Part shown: positions 23,619 through 31,507 of the stretch, one piece after another
Layout: each line of letters starts with the position of its first letter
Position numbering within the stretch: position 1 is the stretch's first letter
Assembly (NCBI GenBank): GCA_027858745.1
Contig: JAQICB010000024.1
Location: forward strand, 1-51,724
DNA from: Bacteroidales bacterium
GTDB lineage: Bacteria > Bacteroidota > Bacteroidia > Bacteroidales > UBA1715
DNA length: 51,724 nt
Reading direction: 5' to 3'
The notes under the pieces: model-generated
What the model was told of the DNA's origin: nothing
Database searches by the model: none
The model's input: the letters and a program-made list of their open reading frames with translations, nothing else
Translations under genes and position numbers: made by a program

Positions 23619-24815
23619 TTATGAAATAATATTTTGTAATGTTCGACGTAACGAAATATAATTAAAGCCTATAATACCAATATATAATCCGATACTGATT
23701 ACAATGGGAATATAAATTGGGATGGTATCAATTGGAACAAAATCTTGTAAGAATTTTAGAATGTAACTATTAGTAACATGTGCCATAATTAATGCTCCAG
23801 AAATAATTATTATGAGCGAAATAAATGAAATAATATTGTAGGGGAGTAATATTGCTTGGTGCGTGAATCCTAAATACCATATGTTTTTGAGTGTAGTTTT
23901 GTTTTTTTCTAAAATTAAATAGAAACTGAATAAAAGGAGGAGAATTGCCAAAATTGTAATTATTAAACCTATCGAAGCAACTATGCTAATGGTGAGTTTG
24001 AGGTAAAACGATAACTTACTGTTTACTAAACTGTTGTCATTTATTTGAAAATTGTTTAAGCTAATATATTCAAATATCTGGGAGTCTGCAATGTTTTTGC
24101 TTTCTACAATGAGTCGCGACGGATTGGGGTGTTCGCCGGTTCCAAATTCTCCATTTGCCCATTTCAAAAAATTTTCGGGAACCAAAACAGTATTTATGCG
24201 TTGAGAAAAATCCACAATCTGTGCTCTGTATATTTCTTGTTTTCCTTTACCGGTTATACGTATATTAAATGTGATTTTACGTATAAGATCTTTTGATAAT
24301 TGAGGTAAGCCTTGAGATGGTGCAAAACCAAAATTGTAGAGCGAAATAAAATTTTCGGGAATAATAATGGGAATATGGTTTTGCCCCTTTTCCCAGACCC
24401 ATACTGATGGATCTTGGTTAATATATTTGTCGGGAACTGTCTCAAAAAATAAGTCAGTACGCAAGGGCATTGATTCATTATCGGTATACATATGAATATG
24501 AAAACGTGATGAAGTGAATTGTGCAATGTCAGTAAAAAAGTCTTGTGAGCGAATGTTTTTTATTTCTCTATCATTAAAAGCGGCAGGACGATTCATTACA
24601 GAATTGAGGGTTGATACTTTTTTGCTGATAACCACAAATTCTTCTTTGAAAATGCCCGATTCTTGCGGGCTTATCGATTTGAAATCTATAAAACAATATA
24701 CTGCCAGTAAAATGACAAATACCCCAATAAATGCTGATACAGAAAAAGCTATAATTTGAAGAAAATTAATATTGCTTTGTACTATTTTCCATATTTCTTT
24801 ATAGGTCGAGAACAT
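23619..24815 (-). CDS. FtsX-like ABC transporter permease
   Basis: The 398-residue protein has an N-terminal membrane helix (about 20-42) and a large extracytoplasmic domain of about 220 residues. Three C-terminal helices follow (about 275-300, 320-345, 365-388). This is the four-helix plan of FtsX/LolC/MacB-type permeases, which transmit force to the periplasm rather than import solutes. It overlaps the ATPase gene by 17 bp, so the two are translated together. The lipoprotein gene upstream is the first gene of the same operon. The substrate is unknown; lipoprotein release or envelope remodelling are possible by family analogy. Confidence 0.8.
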   Translation of the reverse strand: MFSTYKEIWKIVQSNINFLQIIAFSVSAFIGVFVILLAVYCFIDFKSISPQESGIFKEEFVVISKKVSTLNSVMNRPAAFNDREIKNIRSQDFFTDIAQFTSSRFHIHMYTDNESMPLRTDLFFETVPDKYINQDPSVWVWEKGQNHIPIIIPENFISLYNFGFAPSQGLPQLSKDLIRKITFNIRITGKGKQEIYRAQIVDFSQRINTVLVPENFLKWANGEFGTGEHPNPSRLIVESKNIADSQIFEYISLNNFQINDNSLVNSKLSFYLKLTISIVASIGLIITILAILLLLFSFYLILEKNKTTLKNIWYLGFTHQAILLPYNIISFISLIIIISGALIMAHVTNSYILKFLQDFVPIDTIPIYIPIVISIGLYIGIIGFNYISLRRTLQNIIS

Positions 24816-25437
24816 GCTGGTTTGTGGTATATAATTGTTTGTTAAGTGATGTTATAATTGCACTTGCATTTCTTTTCTGTAGTTCTTCTTCAAGAATGTG
24901 CATGCATATTTCGGTATTTTTCTCGTCGAGATGACTAAATGGTTCGTCCAATAATATAAAATCAAAAGGTTGGCATAATGCACGTATTATTGCAAGACGT
25001 TGGCGTTGACCAAAAGATAAAATCCCTGCATTTTTGTGAGTATGAGATTCGAGCCCACATGTTTGAATCAAAAACCGAATTTCTTCTTCTGATTTATAGT
25101 GTGTTAATTTGTTTTTAATCGCAATGTTTTCTGAGATGTTTAATTCAGGAAATAGCCCCAGCCCCTGAAATACAATACTTATATGAGATTTTCGAATGCT
25201 ACTCCAATCGTGGTTTCTGAAAGAGGAAATATCTGTGTCGTCGAACAGAATAGTTCCGGTGAAATCGTTTCGAATGCCAAACAAAATGTGAACAAGAGAT
25301 GTTTTTCCCGTTCCACTTGGGGCAACTATTTGATATATTTTATTTTCGGTAAATGTTATGTCACGTAACCAAATGTCGGACTCAAGAATTGAGTCCGACA
25401 TTGGTTTTGGTATAACTTGGTGACAATGAATCTGCAT
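24799..25437 (-). CDS. ABC transporter ATP-binding protein (LolD/FtsE-like) with altered H-loop
   Basis: The 212-residue ATPase has Walker A PSGTGKTS (40-47), Q-loop Q91 (VFQGLGLFPEL), signature LSFGQ (140-144) and Walker B ILLDEP (161-166) with D-loop SHLDEKN. At the H-loop position, where LolD/FtsE proteins have a THD-type sequence, it reads ITSLN (195-199), so Ser197 replaces the usual His. That His normally senses the ATP gamma phosphate, so hydrolysis may be slow or differently controlled. It starts 1 bp after the lipoprotein stop codon and overlaps the permease gene. Confidence 0.88.
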   Translation of the reverse strand: MQIHCHQVIPKPMSDSILESDIWLRDITFTENKIYQIVAPSGTGKTSLVHILFGIRNDFTGTILFDDTDISSFRNHDWSSIRKSHISIVFQGLGLFPELNISENIAIKNKLTHYKSEEEIRFLIQTCGLESHTHKNAGILSFGQRQRLAIIRALCQPFDFILLDEPFSHLDEKNTEICMHILEEELQKRNASAIITSLNKQLYTTNQHVLDL

Positions 25438-25438
25438 G

Positions 25439-27070
25439 TTAAATTCCCGAAAAATTGTCTATGGTTTCTAATACTTGATACAAACTGTTGTTGTCTTTTT
25501 CTTTTAAATGTATAATAATCGAAGAACTCATTTCATCATTTGATCTTACTTCAAGCGATTGTAACAAAGGCGATACATCAGTGATAATTTTTTCAACGCC
25601 CATTTTTTCTGCCATATTTGTCAAACCTTCCGGATAATTGTTGTAGTCTAAATTAACAAACATATATCCTGCTGGTGAAATATTTTTTGCAATTGAGGTA
25701 GAAGAGAAGCTATCATCAAATCCGCCATTTTCCACATTATCAATAGCTTCTTTGTCGGTGCTAATGAGTAATATGTCTTTTGTGAGTGAAACGTATGTCT
25801 TGATACCCATTGTTGGCGATTGTTTTAAAATATAGTATGAATCAACTTTTTGAAGGTAATTTTCACCGAATATATCTATTAGATTTTGAATACTGCTTGA
25901 TTCAGATAGAGAAAAAGCAGCCGAAATTTTTGGCATGGTAACGGTACGCATTCTTACTGTATCAATAAATTGAGGTCTTCCATTATCGTCGAAACCAACA
26001 AATCGTCGATCGGGAACTTCCATTTCTTCTGTTACTATGTCATAAAAACTGAGGGCAAAGTCGCCGTCGAAATTCTTCAAAATAGGCTCTATCGAAATAC
26101 CGTTTTTTTCAATTACAGAAAGAAAGTTTTCTTTTGTATCAATTTTTTGAATGTATGACATCAATTTTTCCGAATCATATGTGCTTGCCATAAAAAAGAG
26201 TGTTTGTTCGGGGAGAAATGATAAAATATCATCCGAAAAATTATTTTTTGCAAATGAATTCTCAGAAACTAAAGCATCAAAATCTTCGTCGCCATACACC
26301 TGAATAGACGTGTTTATATTGTCAGAATTAAATGCAATAGTAAGAGTGATATAGCTGTCGCGAATATCTTCGATGGTATAATCTCCTAATAATGAAATTG
26401 AAGAGGATAGTTCCTTTTCAATGCTTTTGTCAAGTGCGAGGAGATGACTTGTTGGTGCAAACAATGAAATATCTTCGGCGTCATCCATAAAGGCTAAAAA
26501 TTCATCGTTTTCTGTAATGGTGTTTTCCTCCTGAATATTAAATAAGTCAACAACAAATTCGGTTGAATAATTATCTATGCTGATAAACAAAGCAACATCC
26601 TCGTTAAATGCAATACATGATGTTTGTTCATCGGTGTAAATAATAATATTATCTTTTTCTGCTTTTGTGAATGTATCACTCAATAAGCCTTCTAAGTAAT
26701 CAGAAAAAGCAACATTGTCAGACAGTGACACAACGATGCAATTGTATTTTGATTCTTGTTCCATATATGCATATAGTGGCATATATACATTTATCCCCGA
26801 TGTGTTGTTGTCTTTGATGATTCCTCGTAGAAGTGTTGAGTATACTTCTTGTGATTCTTCGGTCATGTCAATCACATTTTCTATAAAAGCAAAGGTCTCA
26901 TTTTTATATAATTTACTTTTAATGCCCATTTGGGGTAAATCAACAACGCCAACAAAAAGCGATTCTGACGGAATATACTTAACAGCATTGTCTCCCGAGG
27001 TACACGAACTGAACGTGATGGAAATGACAATTGCTGTTATAACAATTGATAAAATTGATTTGTTTTTCAT
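25439..27070 (-). CDS. Large lipoprotein, DUF4836-like
   Basis: The 543-residue protein has a lipoprotein signal with the lipid-attachment cysteine at C23 (ITFSSC). The mature part contains repeated beta-alpha units with the opening AVKYIPSESLFVGVVDLPQMG. This resembles Bacteroidota DUF4836 proteins, which also begin with a block about values or states of the cell, but I am not certain. It is the first gene of the operon with the FtsX-type ABC genes and is transcribed from the symmetric promoter at 27131-27161. It could be a periplasmic partner of that transporter. No enzyme motif is seen. Confidence 0.7.
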   Translation of the reverse strand: MKNKSILSIVITAIVISITFSSCTSGDNAVKYIPSESLFVGVVDLPQMGIKSKLYKNETFAFIENVIDMTEESQEVYSTLLRGIIKDNNTSGINVYMPLYAYMEQESKYNCIVVSLSDNVAFSDYLEGLLSDTFTKAEKDNIIIYTDEQTSCIAFNEDVALFISIDNYSTEFVVDLFNIQEENTITENDEFLAFMDDAEDISLFAPTSHLLALDKSIEKELSSSISLLGDYTIEDIRDSYITLTIAFNSDNINTSIQVYGDEDFDALVSENSFAKNNFSDDILSFLPEQTLFFMASTYDSEKLMSYIQKIDTKENFLSVIEKNGISIEPILKNFDGDFALSFYDIVTEEMEVPDRRFVGFDDNGRPQFIDTVRMRTVTMPKISAAFSLSESSSIQNLIDIFGENYLQKVDSYYILKQSPTMGIKTYVSLTKDILLISTDKEAIDNVENGGFDDSFSSTSIAKNISPAGYMFVNLDYNNYPEGLTNMAEKMGVEKIITDVSPLLQSLEVRSNDEMSSSIIIHLKEKDNNSLYQVLETIDNFSGI

Positions 27071-27097: not shown

Positions 27098-27161
27098 TTT
27101 GTATTAATTAGTTATTCGTTTATTTTTGTACAAAAATAGGTTTTTATTTATTTTCTTCAAA
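27098..27161. promoter_or_regulatory. Symmetric bidirectional promoter for the lipoprotein-ABC operon and porW-porX
   Basis: On the plus strand TTTG (27098-27101), 19 bp, TATTTTTG (27121-27128) is a perfect Bacteroidota promoter. On the minus strand TTTG (27161-27158), 19 bp, TATTTTTG (27138-27131) is another. The two -7 boxes form a perfect 18-bp palindrome at 27121-27138 with two bases between the boxes. Polymerase could occupy only one direction at a time, and a dimeric regulator could bind the palindrome. Predicted leaders are about 55 bases for the lipoprotein gene and about 105 for porW. Confidence 0.8.
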
Positions 27162-27241
27162 TTAGTTTCTTAATTAATATGCAGAGATAATAAAATATTT
27201 TTTTTATTTTAAAGTTAATTGATTAGAAAAACAGTAAGTAC

Positions 27242-29938
27242 GTGTATTTAAGAAAAAAGAAGTTTATATTTTTTGTGTTTGTAACGGTGTTAATTGTGTC
27301 GTGTTCGACTAAGAAAAACACGTTTATTACGCGAACATATCATAATCTTGTTTCCCACTATAATATTTATTTTAATGGGAAAGAGGCATATAAGCAAGGT
27401 TTGCAAAAAATTGAAACTTCATTTGAAGAACCTTACAATACAATTTTGCCTCTTTTTTATTATAAAGATAAATCGGTATTGTCATCAGCATCTTCCGATA
27501 TGGATAGGGCAATTCAAAAATGTTCTAAATTAATAAAACAACATTCTCTTACGGCTCGGCCAAATCAAAAAGGAACTCCTACAACACCCAAACAAAAGGC
27601 GTTTTATGCAAAAAAAGAATACAATGAATGGGTTAAGCAAGCCTATTTGCTTATGGGTAATGCGTTTTTTTATAAGGAAGAGTATCGTGAGGCTCAAAAA
27701 AATTACCAATTCTTATTGGTCGAGTATTCGAACAATGAAATTCGTTTTAATGCATATTTGGGAATCGCACGTGTTCGAGTTGAACAAAATCAATATGAGC
27801 AGGCTCGTGATATATTACAAAAAATGAGTGAAGATGCACAATTCCCGGAAGAACTATTTGGAGAATTGTATGCATTGTATACCGATATAAATATTCAACA
27901 GAAAAAGTATGATGAGGCTATTGTTACGCTTGAAAAGACCTTAGAATATAATATAAAGAAAAAAGAAAAAGTGAGATATACATACATTCTTGCTCAATTG
28001 TATCAAGAAATCGGGTATAGTGATAGAGCTATAGCTTTGTATTCTGAGGTGGAGAAAATGAATCCGACCTATGAAATGACCTTTCAAGCACGAATTAATA
28101 AAGCTACAGCGTACGGTGGTGGCGGCGGTAGTTCGCAAATTATAACACAACTTAATAAATTATTGAAGGACGAAAAGAATAAGGAGTATCGCGACCAAAT
28201 TTATTATGCATTAGCAAATATCTATTATCAAGAGAATAAGGAAGATAAAGCTTTTGAGAATTATAAGTTGTCATTGCAATTCAGTCAGTCAGAATCATAC
28301 CAAAAGGCTATGTCTTATCTCGCGATAGGTGATATTTTGCTTTCGAAACGCCAATATATTAAGGCTGCTCCATATTATGATTCGTGTAGCATGATTCTTC
28401 CTCAAGATTATCGAAACTACTCGGAAGTGATGGCAACTAACGAAAATTTGAAAGCTCTGGCAAATGAGCATTCTGTTGTGGTTACGCAAGATAGTTTGTT
28501 GCGAATTGCCAACATGAGTAAGCCGGAACGTAATGCCTTTGTCGATAAGATAATTGCTGATATTAATCAACGTGAGCGGGAAGCTCGTGAACGAGAAGCA
28601 ATTCAGCGAGAACAGTCTCGAATGTATGCTCAGGAGTTTGGTAGTCAGAATCAAAAACTCGGCGGTGCTTGGTATTTTTATAACGATGCAGTTGTGCAAC
28701 TCGGAAAAACAGAGTTCGTTACGAAATGGGGAGACAGAAAATTACGCGATAATTGGCGGTTTTCTCAAATGAATCAGAATGATTGGGATGTGCAAAATGA
28801 TGAAAATCCGCAATCTGATTCTTTGGCAACGGAAACGGAAGGAAATTTTAATATAAAATCACGAGATTTTTATTTGAAAGATCTCCCTCTTACCGATTCT
28901 GCTCAAAAAGCTGCCGTACGCAAAGTAGAAGTCAGCATGTTCCAAAAAGGAATGATTTATTACAATAGTATTCAAGATAATGAAAAGGCTGTTTCTACTC
29001 TCGAATCTTTTGTTTCTCGCTTCCCCAACAGTGAATATGCTCCTATTGCATATTATTATTTGCATATTATTTCTTTGGAACTAAATAATTTTAGTCTCGC
29101 AGAGGAGTATAAACAAAAATTGATATCTGAATTTCCGGAGAGTAACTATTCATCTGCCTTAACTGACCCTGAATATTTAAATAATATTAGAACGCAAATC
29201 AAGCAGGCTCATGCAGATTATTCGAAATTATATAAAGCATTTGTGGTAAATAATACCGATGAGGTTATTCGCATTTCTCAGTCAATTCAATATTCATACC
29301 CACAATCTGACTTATTGCCGAAAGCAGTGTTTCTCGAAAACTTGTCTCGGGGAAAACGCGATGGTGCTGATAAGTTAAAACAGTATATGACTTCTTATGC
29401 AGAAATGTATCCTGATTCTGAATTATATGACATGGCATTGCGTATAGCTCATTATATTGATACGGTAAGGGTGCAAACCGAAACCGGTAATGAGGTGGGG
29501 GCAGAGCAAATTCTCCAATCAGCCGATTCGGAATCGTATGCACAAGAAAAGCAACAAGACGAACGAAAGGAGTTTGTCTACAACGAAGATGCAGAGCATT
29601 TTTTGTGTATTATTGTTCGTTCCGAATTTGTTAATGCTAATCGTATTCGATTTAATTTGTTGAATTATAATTTGGATTATTTTACCAATTTTAATTTTGA
29701 TATCTCTGTTCGGGAACTCTCTCTGCACCATAATATGGTTATTTTGGAACGGTTTGATGAGGTGTCTCAAGCTATAAATTACTACGAATTAATTACCTAT
29801 TCAGATGAAGTTTTTGAGGGTGTTGAGAAAAGTTTTACCTATCAATGTGTTATTAATCAACACAATCTGGATATTTTGATGCAGTATAAAAATCTTGATG
29901 AATATTTATCGTTTTTTCAAGAGAATTACATTCAATAA
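27242..29938 (+). CDS. porW: Type IX secretion / gliding lipoprotein PorW (SprE), TPR-rich
   Basis: The 898-residue protein has a lipoprotein signal with C21 (VLIVSC) and opens with FITRTYHNLVSHYNIYFNGKEAYKQG, the characteristic start of PorW/SprE. Many TPR units follow in two blocks (about 100-390 and 560-700), with a charged helix of Glu/Arg near 440-470. SprE is needed for type IX secretion and gliding in Flavobacterium, and PorW for gingipain secretion in Porphyromonas. The start is GTG at 27242: an in-frame stop lies shortly upstream and the signal peptide needs this position. It is 9 bp upstream of porX and co-transcribed with it. Confidence 0.9.
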   Translation: MYLRKKKFIFFVFVTVLIVSCSTKKNTFITRTYHNLVSHYNIYFNGKEAYKQGLQKIETSFEEPYNTILPLFYYKDKSVLSSASSDMDRAIQKCSKLIKQHSLTARPNQKGTPTTPKQKAFYAKKEYNEWVKQAYLLMGNAFFYKEEYREAQKNYQFLLVEYSNNEIRFNAYLGIARVRVEQNQYEQARDILQKMSEDAQFPEELFGELYALYTDINIQQKKYDEAIVTLEKTLEYNIKKKEKVRYTYILAQLYQEIGYSDRAIALYSEVEKMNPTYEMTFQARINKATAYGGGGGSSQIITQLNKLLKDEKNKEYRDQIYYALANIYYQENKEDKAFENYKLSLQFSQSESYQKAMSYLAIGDILLSKRQYIKAAPYYDSCSMILPQDYRNYSEVMATNENLKALANEHSVVVTQDSLLRIANMSKPERNAFVDKIIADINQREREAREREAIQREQSRMYAQEFGSQNQKLGGAWYFYNDAVVQLGKTEFVTKWGDRKLRDNWRFSQMNQNDWDVQNDENPQSDSLATETEGNFNIKSRDFYLKDLPLTDSAQKAAVRKVEVSMFQKGMIYYNSIQDNEKAVSTLESFVSRFPNSEYAPIAYYYLHIISLELNNFSLAEEYKQKLISEFPESNYSSALTDPEYLNNIRTQIKQAHADYSKLYKAFVVNNTDEVIRISQSIQYSYPQSDLLPKAVFLENLSRGKRDGADKLKQYMTSYAEMYPDSELYDMALRIAHYIDTVRVQTETGNEVGAEQILQSADSESYAQEKQQDERKEFVYNEDAEHFLCIIVRSEFVNANRIRFNLLNYNLDYFTNFNFDISVRELSLHHNMVILERFDEVSQAINYYELITYSDEVFEGVEKSFTYQCVINQHNLDILMQYKNLDEYLSFFQENYIQ

Positions 29939-29947
29939 AATAAATAT

Positions 29948-31507
29948 ATGAAAAACGGAACTATCCTTTGGGCAGATGATGAGATTGAATTGTTAAAACC
30001 GCATGTGCTTTTTTTAGAAGGTAAGGGATATTCGGTTGTAGCTGTTAACGATGGTATGTCGGCAATAGAAAAAATGCGGGAGTCCCGATTTGATATTGTT
30101 TTTTTGGATGAACAAATGCCGGGTATTAGTGGTATTGATGCTCTTATTGAAATTAAGAAAATTGATCCTGTTGTGCCGGTTATTATGATTACTAAAAGTG
30201 AGGCTGAAGATATTATGGAGGCTGCAATAGGTTCTCAAATATCTGACTATCTTATAAAACCGGTAAACCCTAATCAGATATTGTTGACACTCAAGAAAAA
30301 TCTCAATAGTTCTCATATTATTACGCAAGAAACAACAACTAAATATCAGACAGAATTTTCTCAATTGGGAATTGAAATAGGTAATGCTCAATGCTGGGAC
30401 GATTGGGTGGCTGTGTACAAAAAAATTACCTATTGGGATTTGCAACTCGAAATGTCTCAAGACAGAGCAATGGACGAAATTTTGCAGATGCAAAAACAAG
30501 AAGCAAATGCTTCGTATGCAAAATTTATTCAAAAAAATTATGTATCGTGGTTTAGCTCTGATGATGAGGAAAAGCCTATTATGTCTCCAAGTCTTTTAAA
30601 AGAAAAGATTTTTCCTGCGCTTAAAAAAAATGAAACACCAACAGTCTTACTTGTTCTCGATAATTTTCGGTACGACCACTGGCTGACACTACGTTCCTTT
30701 TTTCATGAGTTTTTTACAATTGATGCCGAAGATCTGTATTGCAGTATTTTACCGACAACAACACAATATGCTCGAAACTCTCTATTTGCCGGATTGATGC
30801 CTTTGGAAATTTCGCATAATTATCCGGAAATATGGAAAAATGATGAAGATGATGAGGGTAAGAATATGTTCGAAGAACAGTTGTTGAGTGCCCACTTAAA
30901 GCGAATGGGAATAGATTCGAAATTCTTCTTTAAGAAAATTACGGCGATTAATCCAAGTAAAAATTTAATGGATATCGTGCATCAAATGAAAGAACATCAA
31001 TTTTCGGTTATTGTCTATAATTTTGTAGACACCCTCTCGCACACACGTACCGAAATGGATATGATAAAAGAATTGGCAGGGGATGAGTCAGCATATCGTT
31101 CCTTAATTAAATCATGGTTTCGTCATTCCTTACTATATGACGTGATAAAGGAAATTGCACATAATAAATGTAAATTATTTGTCACGACCGATCATGGTTC
31201 TGTTCGTGTACAACATCCAATTAAGGTGGTGGGCGACAAAACAATTACTACCAATTTGCGATACAAAAATGGCCGTGCATTAAAATATAATCCCAAAGAG
31301 GTCTTTGAAATACGTAAGCCTGAGGACGCACATTTACCCACACCTCATTTAACAAGTTCGTATATTTTTTCTCGACAACAAGACTTTTTTGCGTATCCTA
31401 ATAATTTTAATTATTACGCACGCTATTATAAAAACTCCTTTCAGCACGGTGGTATTTCTTTGGAAGAGATGATAATTCCTTGTGTTGAGTTGACTGCACG
31501 AGAGTGA
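29948..31507 (+). CDS. porX: Type IX secretion response regulator PorX with PglZ/alkaline-phosphatase-like output
   Basis: The 519-residue protein has an N-terminal receiver domain (1-120) with acidic pair D9-D10... (WADDE), phospho-acceptor D54 (FLDEQMPG) and the conserved K in LIKPVNP. A helical linker leads to a PglZ domain of the alkaline phosphatase superfamily (about 205-515). Metal-site motifs include VLDNFRYDHW, TTDHGS and the late QHGGISLEEMIIP. PorX is the known partner of the PorY kinase and of the SigP sigma factor in controlling type IX genes, and the PglZ domain has zinc-dependent phosphodiesterase activity in Porphyromonas. No porY is visible in the window. Confidence 0.93.
   Translation: MKNGTILWADDEIELLKPHVLFLEGKGYSVVAVNDGMSAIEKMRESRFDIVFLDEQMPGISGIDALIEIKKIDPVVPVIMITKSEAEDIMEAAIGSQISDYLIKPVNPNQILLTLKKNLNSSHIITQETTTKYQTEFSQLGIEIGNAQCWDDWVAVYKKITYWDLQLEMSQDRAMDEILQMQKQEANASYAKFIQKNYVSWFSSDDEEKPIMSPSLLKEKIFPALKKNETPTVLLVLDNFRYDHWLTLRSFFHEFFTIDAEDLYCSILPTTTQYARNSLFAGLMPLEISHNYPEIWKNDEDDEGKNMFEEQLLSAHLKRMGIDSKFFFKKITAINPSKNLMDIVHQMKEHQFSVIVYNFVDTLSHTRTEMDMIKELAGDESAYRSLIKSWFRHSLLYDVIKEIAHNKCKLFVTTDHGSVRVQHPIKVVGDKTITTNLRYKNGRALKYNPKEVFEIRKPEDAHLPTPHLTSSYIFSRQQDFFAYPNNFNYYARYYKNSFQHGGISLEEMIIPCVELTARE

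Follow-up and report, generated by a model that had tools for sequence, protein, structure and literature searches.

Genes and features of the porW intergenic region

The window, by which we mean the whole 51,724-nucleotide stretch of Bacteroidales DNA that was analysed, contains two divergent gene groups that face away from a 171-bp intergenic region (Table 1). The rightward group consists of porW (also called sprE), which encodes a type IX secretion lipoprotein, and porX, which encodes a response regulator of the same system and starts 9 bp after the end of porW. The leftward group begins with a gene for a DUF4836 protein with a lipoprotein-like N-terminus and continues with an ABC transporter ATPase gene and an overlapping gene for a putative permease. 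The profile matches, PorW and PorX to the right and DUF4836 and the ABC ATPase to the left, agree with the first-pass annotation, which had named the neighbours as porW-porX and a lipoprotein-ABC operon.

The DUF4836-ATPase-permease group is retained in four of the 12 family loci searched (L152-L155), which come from two genera, and it looks like an uncharacterised envelope transporter. Both in the window (23619-25437) and at L153-L155, DUF4836 is followed by the ABC ATPase and then by a membrane protein that has no Pfam or NCBIfam match. DUF4836 directly adjoins porW in the window and at L006, the corresponding locus of a sister species, and at no other of the 110 loci searched (L005-L034 and L037-L116), a set in which many loci show no porW and the flanks of L005-L034 were 1.5 kb. 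At G008:C26 and G006:C26 (L008, L158, L011 and L159) DUF4836 is divergent to porW at a distance of about 1.35 kb with one gene between them. Since both genes are present and divergent in these two genomes, the data suggest that the DUF4836-porW neighbourhood predates the genus.

Table 1 Features of the porW intergenic region and its flanking genes (window coordinates)
Feature	Position	Strand	Basis or remark
Putative ABC permease, overlapping the ATPase gene	23619-24815	-	Without Pfam or NCBIfam match
ABC transporter ATPase, second gene of leftward group	24799-25437	-	PF00005
DUF4836 protein, lipoprotein-like N-terminus	25439-27070	-	PF16120, E 6.4e-41
-33 box TTTG, rightward promoter	27098-27101	+	Direct reading; N19 to -7 box
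-7 box TATTTTTG, rightward promoter, facing porW	27121-27128	+	Direct reading; retained at L006 1379-1386
Perfect 18-bp palindrome (both -7 boxes and TA gap)	27121-27138		Direct reading
Predicted leftward transcription start	27126	-	From box at -12 to -5 (PMC9723704, available text)
TA gap joining the two -7 boxes	27129-27130		
-7 box, leftward promoter, facing DUF4836 gene	27131-27138	- (TATTTTTG; + strand CAAAAATA)	Direct reading; retained at L006 1389-1396
Predicted rightward transcription start	27133	+	5 nt past the last G of the box; from box at -12 to -5 (PMC9723704, available text)
-33 box, leftward promoter	27158-27161	- (TTTG; + strand CAAA)	Direct reading; N19 to -7 box
Degraded copy of family porW leader element	27193-27221	+	Alignments; rival porW start signal
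porW/sprE, type IX secretion lipoprotein, GTG start	27242-29938	+	NF052312, E 4.1e-188
porX, type IX secretion response regulator	29948-31507	+	NF052313, E 9.1e-233

Two exact promoter consensus sequences share a palindromic core

Each strand of the intergenic site reads TTTG-N19-TATTTTTG, and the two -7 boxes stand back to back. As the first-pass annotation had claimed, the core between the two promoter sequences is a perfect 18-bp palindrome: direct reading shows that 27121-27138 is identical to its own reverse complement, and among the matches listed the genome holds one exact copy. The N19 spacers are asymmetric and are not mirror images of each other, so the exact symmetry is limited to the boxes and their spacing.

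The available text of PMC7366714 and PMC9723704 gives the sigma-ABfr consensus as a -7 box TAnnTTTG and a -33 box TTTG separated by an A+T-rich spacer. On both strands of the site the -7 box agrees with TAnnTTTG and a TTTG stands at the usual spacing (TTTG-N19). The core elements on opposite strands, 27121-27128 (+) and 27131-27138 (-), would have overlapping footprints, as is the case for bidirectional promoters, in which opposite-strand core elements share or overlap DNA. A search of the site for a sigma-70 type promoter or a terminator found neither, and the single Rfam match, a sub-threshold snoRNA, is read as chance.

These are the only two matches to TTTG-N19-TANNTTTG on either strand of the window. 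Whole-window shuffles gave 0.71 expected matches, and two or more were found in 18 of 100 shuffles; thus the matches alone mean little. The unlikely part is the abutting arrangement of the boxes. In 40,000 rounds of dinucleotide shuffling applied to the 171-bp intergenic DNA, the double -7 motif with a 2-bp gap, TANNTTTG-NN-CAAANNTA, appeared eight times, whereas the full design, in which a -33 box also stands 18-20 bp from each -7 box, did not appear (0/40,000). On balance we think it probable, by a modest degree, that the site serves the housekeeping sigma factor, of the sigma-ABfr type, as a bidirectional promoter. Its best reading is that of a known kind, the bidirectional promoter, in an unusually tidy sigma-ABfr form.

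Placement of -7 boxes in the genome

We counted boxes in a 452-kb sample of this genome (20 stretches and the window) with the reversed motif as a control. Over the entire sample TANNTTTG was about as common as the control (359+318 versus 366+278), so that the signal lies in where the boxes are placed: there were 58 matches versus 16 for the control in divergent intergenic DNA, and 69 in the sense versus 28 in the antisense direction in co-directional gaps. In a sample of 118 boxes, TTG was weakly favoured 19 bp upstream of the TA, which corresponds to the N19 spacing. The claim that a promoter consensus is present in both directions is upheld by the exact boxes at the site and by the fit of box and spacing to this genome. 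The double motif TANNTTTG-NN-CAAANNTA is not enriched in this genome (three matches versus seven for the reversed control), which rules out a genome-wide class of double -7 sites.

Near matches to the 18-mer TATTTTTGTACAAAAATA were found at 20 genome sites versus one for the reversed control. At least seven of the 20 (L117, L118, L119, L124, L126, L128 and L131) lie directly before a single gene start, and the excess is therefore attributed mostly to one-way promoters with runs of T and A; as a class of sites the near matches were set aside.

The symmetric site in the sister species

The genus is represented by two genomes, and in the second (G001, locus L006) the same divergent pair is present, with identities of 54% for PorW and 38% for DUF4836. 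The L006 core (1379-1396) reads TAAATTTG-TG-CAAATTTA and is accompanied by the -33 boxes ATTG (TTG-N19) and TTTG (N18). Its -7 boxes lie 116 and 106 nt from the porW GTG start, versus 121 and 111 nt in the window. The cores are in register in both alignments made of the two intergenic regions, which are 57-59% identical (alignment score 112 versus a shuffle mean of 89.9, sd 7.9). Loss of the symmetry in relatives that keep both genes had been named beforehand as evidence against the proposal; in the one relative compared, L006, the symmetry is retained. Of the 18 letters of the palindrome five have changed and palindromy persists at 16/18, the NN pairs having changed alike in both arms from TT to AA.

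All 12 sigma-consensus positions match between the window and the L006 core, and five of the six free positions differ. For five differences scattered randomly across 18 columns, the probability that the six free columns receive them all is P 0.0007; this value and the 12/12 match are descriptive and no independent test, because the L006 boxes were located via the consensus, and for that reason the match count and the shuffle figure are not independent of each other. Shuffles of L006's own intergenic DNA gave the gap-2 pair in 13 of 40,000 cases and the pair with TTG boxes in one of 40,000. With one relative carrying the pair and an intergenic identity of 57-59%, descent without selection could also account for the likeness.

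The pattern of changes bears on a second explanation, in which the palindrome is the operator of a dimeric regulator and resembles -7 boxes only secondarily. The palindrome, perfect in the window and near-perfect in L006, the matched TT to AA change and the 20 near matches in the genome would all fit an operator, and because the NN pairs changed alike while 16/18 of the palindrome was retained, we keep a regulator site as a minor rival. Yet the letters that an operator would need are those that changed, at five of six free positions, whereas the sigma consensus stayed constant; at least seven of the 20 near matches lie before one gene's start, like single promoters; and two correctly spaced -33 boxes would not be expected of an operator. 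We consider this explanation quite improbable.

Opposed -7 boxes across Bacteroidales

Over 119 Bacteroidales genomes the gap-2 motif TANNTTTG-NN-CAAANNTA occurred 319 times versus 137 for the control, with 76 genomes above, 25 below and 18 equal to their control. In the same genomes, double -7 boxes with a gap of 3 numbered 421 versus 124 and those with a gap of 15 numbered 272 versus 175. Opposed -7 boxes thus exceed the control at every gap tried, and more so when they are close. A special role of the 2-bp gap was rejected, because gap 3 is more strongly enriched and because gap-15 sites fall between divergent genes no less often. Among loci taken as the first listed per genome rather than as a random draw, with genes called by a plain open reading frame rule, the sites between divergent genes were 7/23 for gap 2, 6/21 for gap 3 and 8/20 for gap 15, and those inside open reading frames 9/23, 8/21 and 6/20, respectively. 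Coding sequence may therefore contribute part of the excess of opposed boxes.

The exact full design (N18-20) is far rarer. It was found in four of 393 Bacteroidales genomes, once in each, versus none for the control, and each of these sites is flanked by a divergent gene pair: the DUF4836-ABC group and porW-porX in the window, a radical-SAM methylthiotransferase-like gene and a short ORF (L242), DUF4290 and a sigma-54-dependent regulator (L243, G226:C8), and a beta-lactamase-family gene and lpxD (L245). The statement that such an exact double consensus is unusual thus holds for the full design and fails for loose double -7 boxes, at least one of which is present in 97 of the 119 genomes. The four gene pairs have nothing obvious in common, which points to a recurring accident or a choice of geometry rather than to a type IX secretion circuit. 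The site at L243 is a perfect palindrome, TAACTTTGTACAAAGTTA, with both -33 boxes, and represents an independent case of the same design.

The survey also bears on chance, that is, on A+T-rich intergenic DNA that fits the motif by accident and was inherited under little constraint by the sister species. In the window, single TTTG-N19-TANNTTTG matches are about as frequent as chance would give; this genome has no excess of loose double -7 boxes over the control; and the share of gap-15 pairs located between divergent genes is no lower than that of gap-2 pairs. Set against this are the absence of the full design from 40,000 shuffles in the window, the single occurrence of its TTG version in as many shuffles of L006, and the count of four exact designs versus zero over 393 genomes, all between divergent genes. 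Chance is, in our judgement, a very improbable account of the site.

Proposed function as a bidirectional promoter

Read as a bidirectional promoter, the site would comprise two complete promoters, one per strand, placed back to back. The available text of PMC9723704 places the -7 box at -12 to -5 relative to the start, so that the predicted start of each promoter would fall inside the -7 box of the other, about 7 bp apart. The predicted leaders, of 109 nt to the porW GTG and 56 nt to the DUF4836 ATG, compare with medians of 24 and 32 nt given in the same text for two Bacteroidota, a comparison that depends on the predicted starts and that, for the long rightward leader, would count against this reading. 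RNA polymerase could bind in either orientation, but, since the footprints overlap, only one polymerase at a time; the rightward complex would give porW-porX RNA and the leftward complex DUF4836-ABC RNA. We infer the firing in both directions, the start sites, the co-transcription of porX and of the ABC genes, and the mutual exclusion.

Warman, Grainger and colleagues described bidirectional promoters in E. coli and in other prokaryotes (available text of PMC12825309 and PMC10268837). As proposed for the site described here, these have a near-symmetrical core to which polymerase binds in two orientations, with opposite-strand starts a few to about 20 bp apart and binding of one polymerase excluding the other. 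In E. coli the symmetry is that of TATAAT and the starts are mostly 18 bp apart (also 10 and 23), whereas at the present site a gap of 2 bp parts two distinct, back-to-back sigma-ABfr -7 boxes, both -33 boxes are exact and the starts are predicted to be 7 bp from each other. According to the available text of PMC12825309, five of five tested E. coli bidirectional promoters were too weak at the basal level to compete, and competition was seen once one side was strengthened. Interference would accordingly be expected only with one side strongly used, and the exact boxes on both sides would make competition likelier here.

The sigma-ABfr promoters of Bacteroidota in PMC7366714 and PMC9723704 have the same boxes but are described as one-directional; the available text of the two articles mentions no shared two-way cores and contains the word "bidirectional" 0 times. 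A title and abstract search, with subscription papers mostly outside its reach, found no paper on two-way promoters in Bacteroides. The PorXY-SigP system of Porphyromonas gingivalis also concerns promoters of type IX secretion genes. As presented in the available text of PMC4800418, SigP belongs to the ECF sigma factors and has a different motif, unlike the sigma-ABfr boxes here, and its binding is reported at porT, ruvA, porV and porP, with no mention of a test at porW.

If both halves fire, the site would be a clean natural case in which to ask whether full-strength promoters with a common core shut each other out, in a phylum that differs from E. coli in its promoters, and geometry alone would tie the level of one type IX secretion component to that of an envelope operon. 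At present the palindrome represents a known kind in tidy form and is useful mainly as a ready reporter test. A role as a regulatory choice point between porW-porX and the lipoprotein-ABC operon is not supported by the analysis, and we claim no switch. It is unlikely, in our view, that a class of back-to-back sigma-ABfr promoters with near-perfect halves strong enough to compete is maintained in Bacteroidales, by which porW-porX and the envelope lipoprotein-ABC operon would be opposed at polymerase binding without a regulator; the greater excess of close than of distant opposed -7 boxes over 119 genomes would fit such a class.

A conserved leader element upstream of porW

Upstream of porW a leader element could be aligned in 13 family loci (the window and L006-L017), with G013 left out as its porW is split over contigs; a second alignment had 10 rows. 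In one genus the element has the form TTTGCTCC-TGTAAAATACTTTCGTTATTTTGCAGTT, with variants in other genera. It may be an older porW start signal, in which case the genus would have gained the rightward arm of the palindromic site as an additional promoter.

The element gives rise to a one-sided explanation: in practice the site would drive the DUF4836 operon, porW would be transcribed mainly from the family-conserved element close ahead of its start codon, and the rightward arm would be weak or incidental. In addition to the alignment, the exact 20-mer ATACTTTCGTTATTTTGCAG occurs in one place, before porW, in five of the 11 genomes searched; there is no TANNTTTG upstream of porW at L007, L008, L010, L011, L012 and L014-L017; and the element lies nearer to porW than the symmetric site with its long predicted (109-nt) rightward leader. 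However, the window copy is degraded, with TATTTTTT where L006 carries TATTTTTG, and the rightward promoter has an exact -33 box and an exact -7 box in the window, both retained in L006. The element itself is a putative promoter that matches TANNTTTG poorly except at L006, and the stability of its RNA folds is unremarkable (z -1.71 to 0.35). We regard one-sided use as rather unlikely and continue to favour the bidirectional promoter. The same fold values, near shuffle level, led us to reject a structured leader before porW.

The element is perhaps a promoter of another sigma type. Its -7-like sequence TATTTTGC resembles the TAnnTTGY box (SM5) described for F. psychrophilum in the available text of PMC9723704, a likeness of sequence only. 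The element (AAAATACTTTCGTTATTTTGCAGTT in one genus) is in part an inverted repeat and is conserved before porW across the family.
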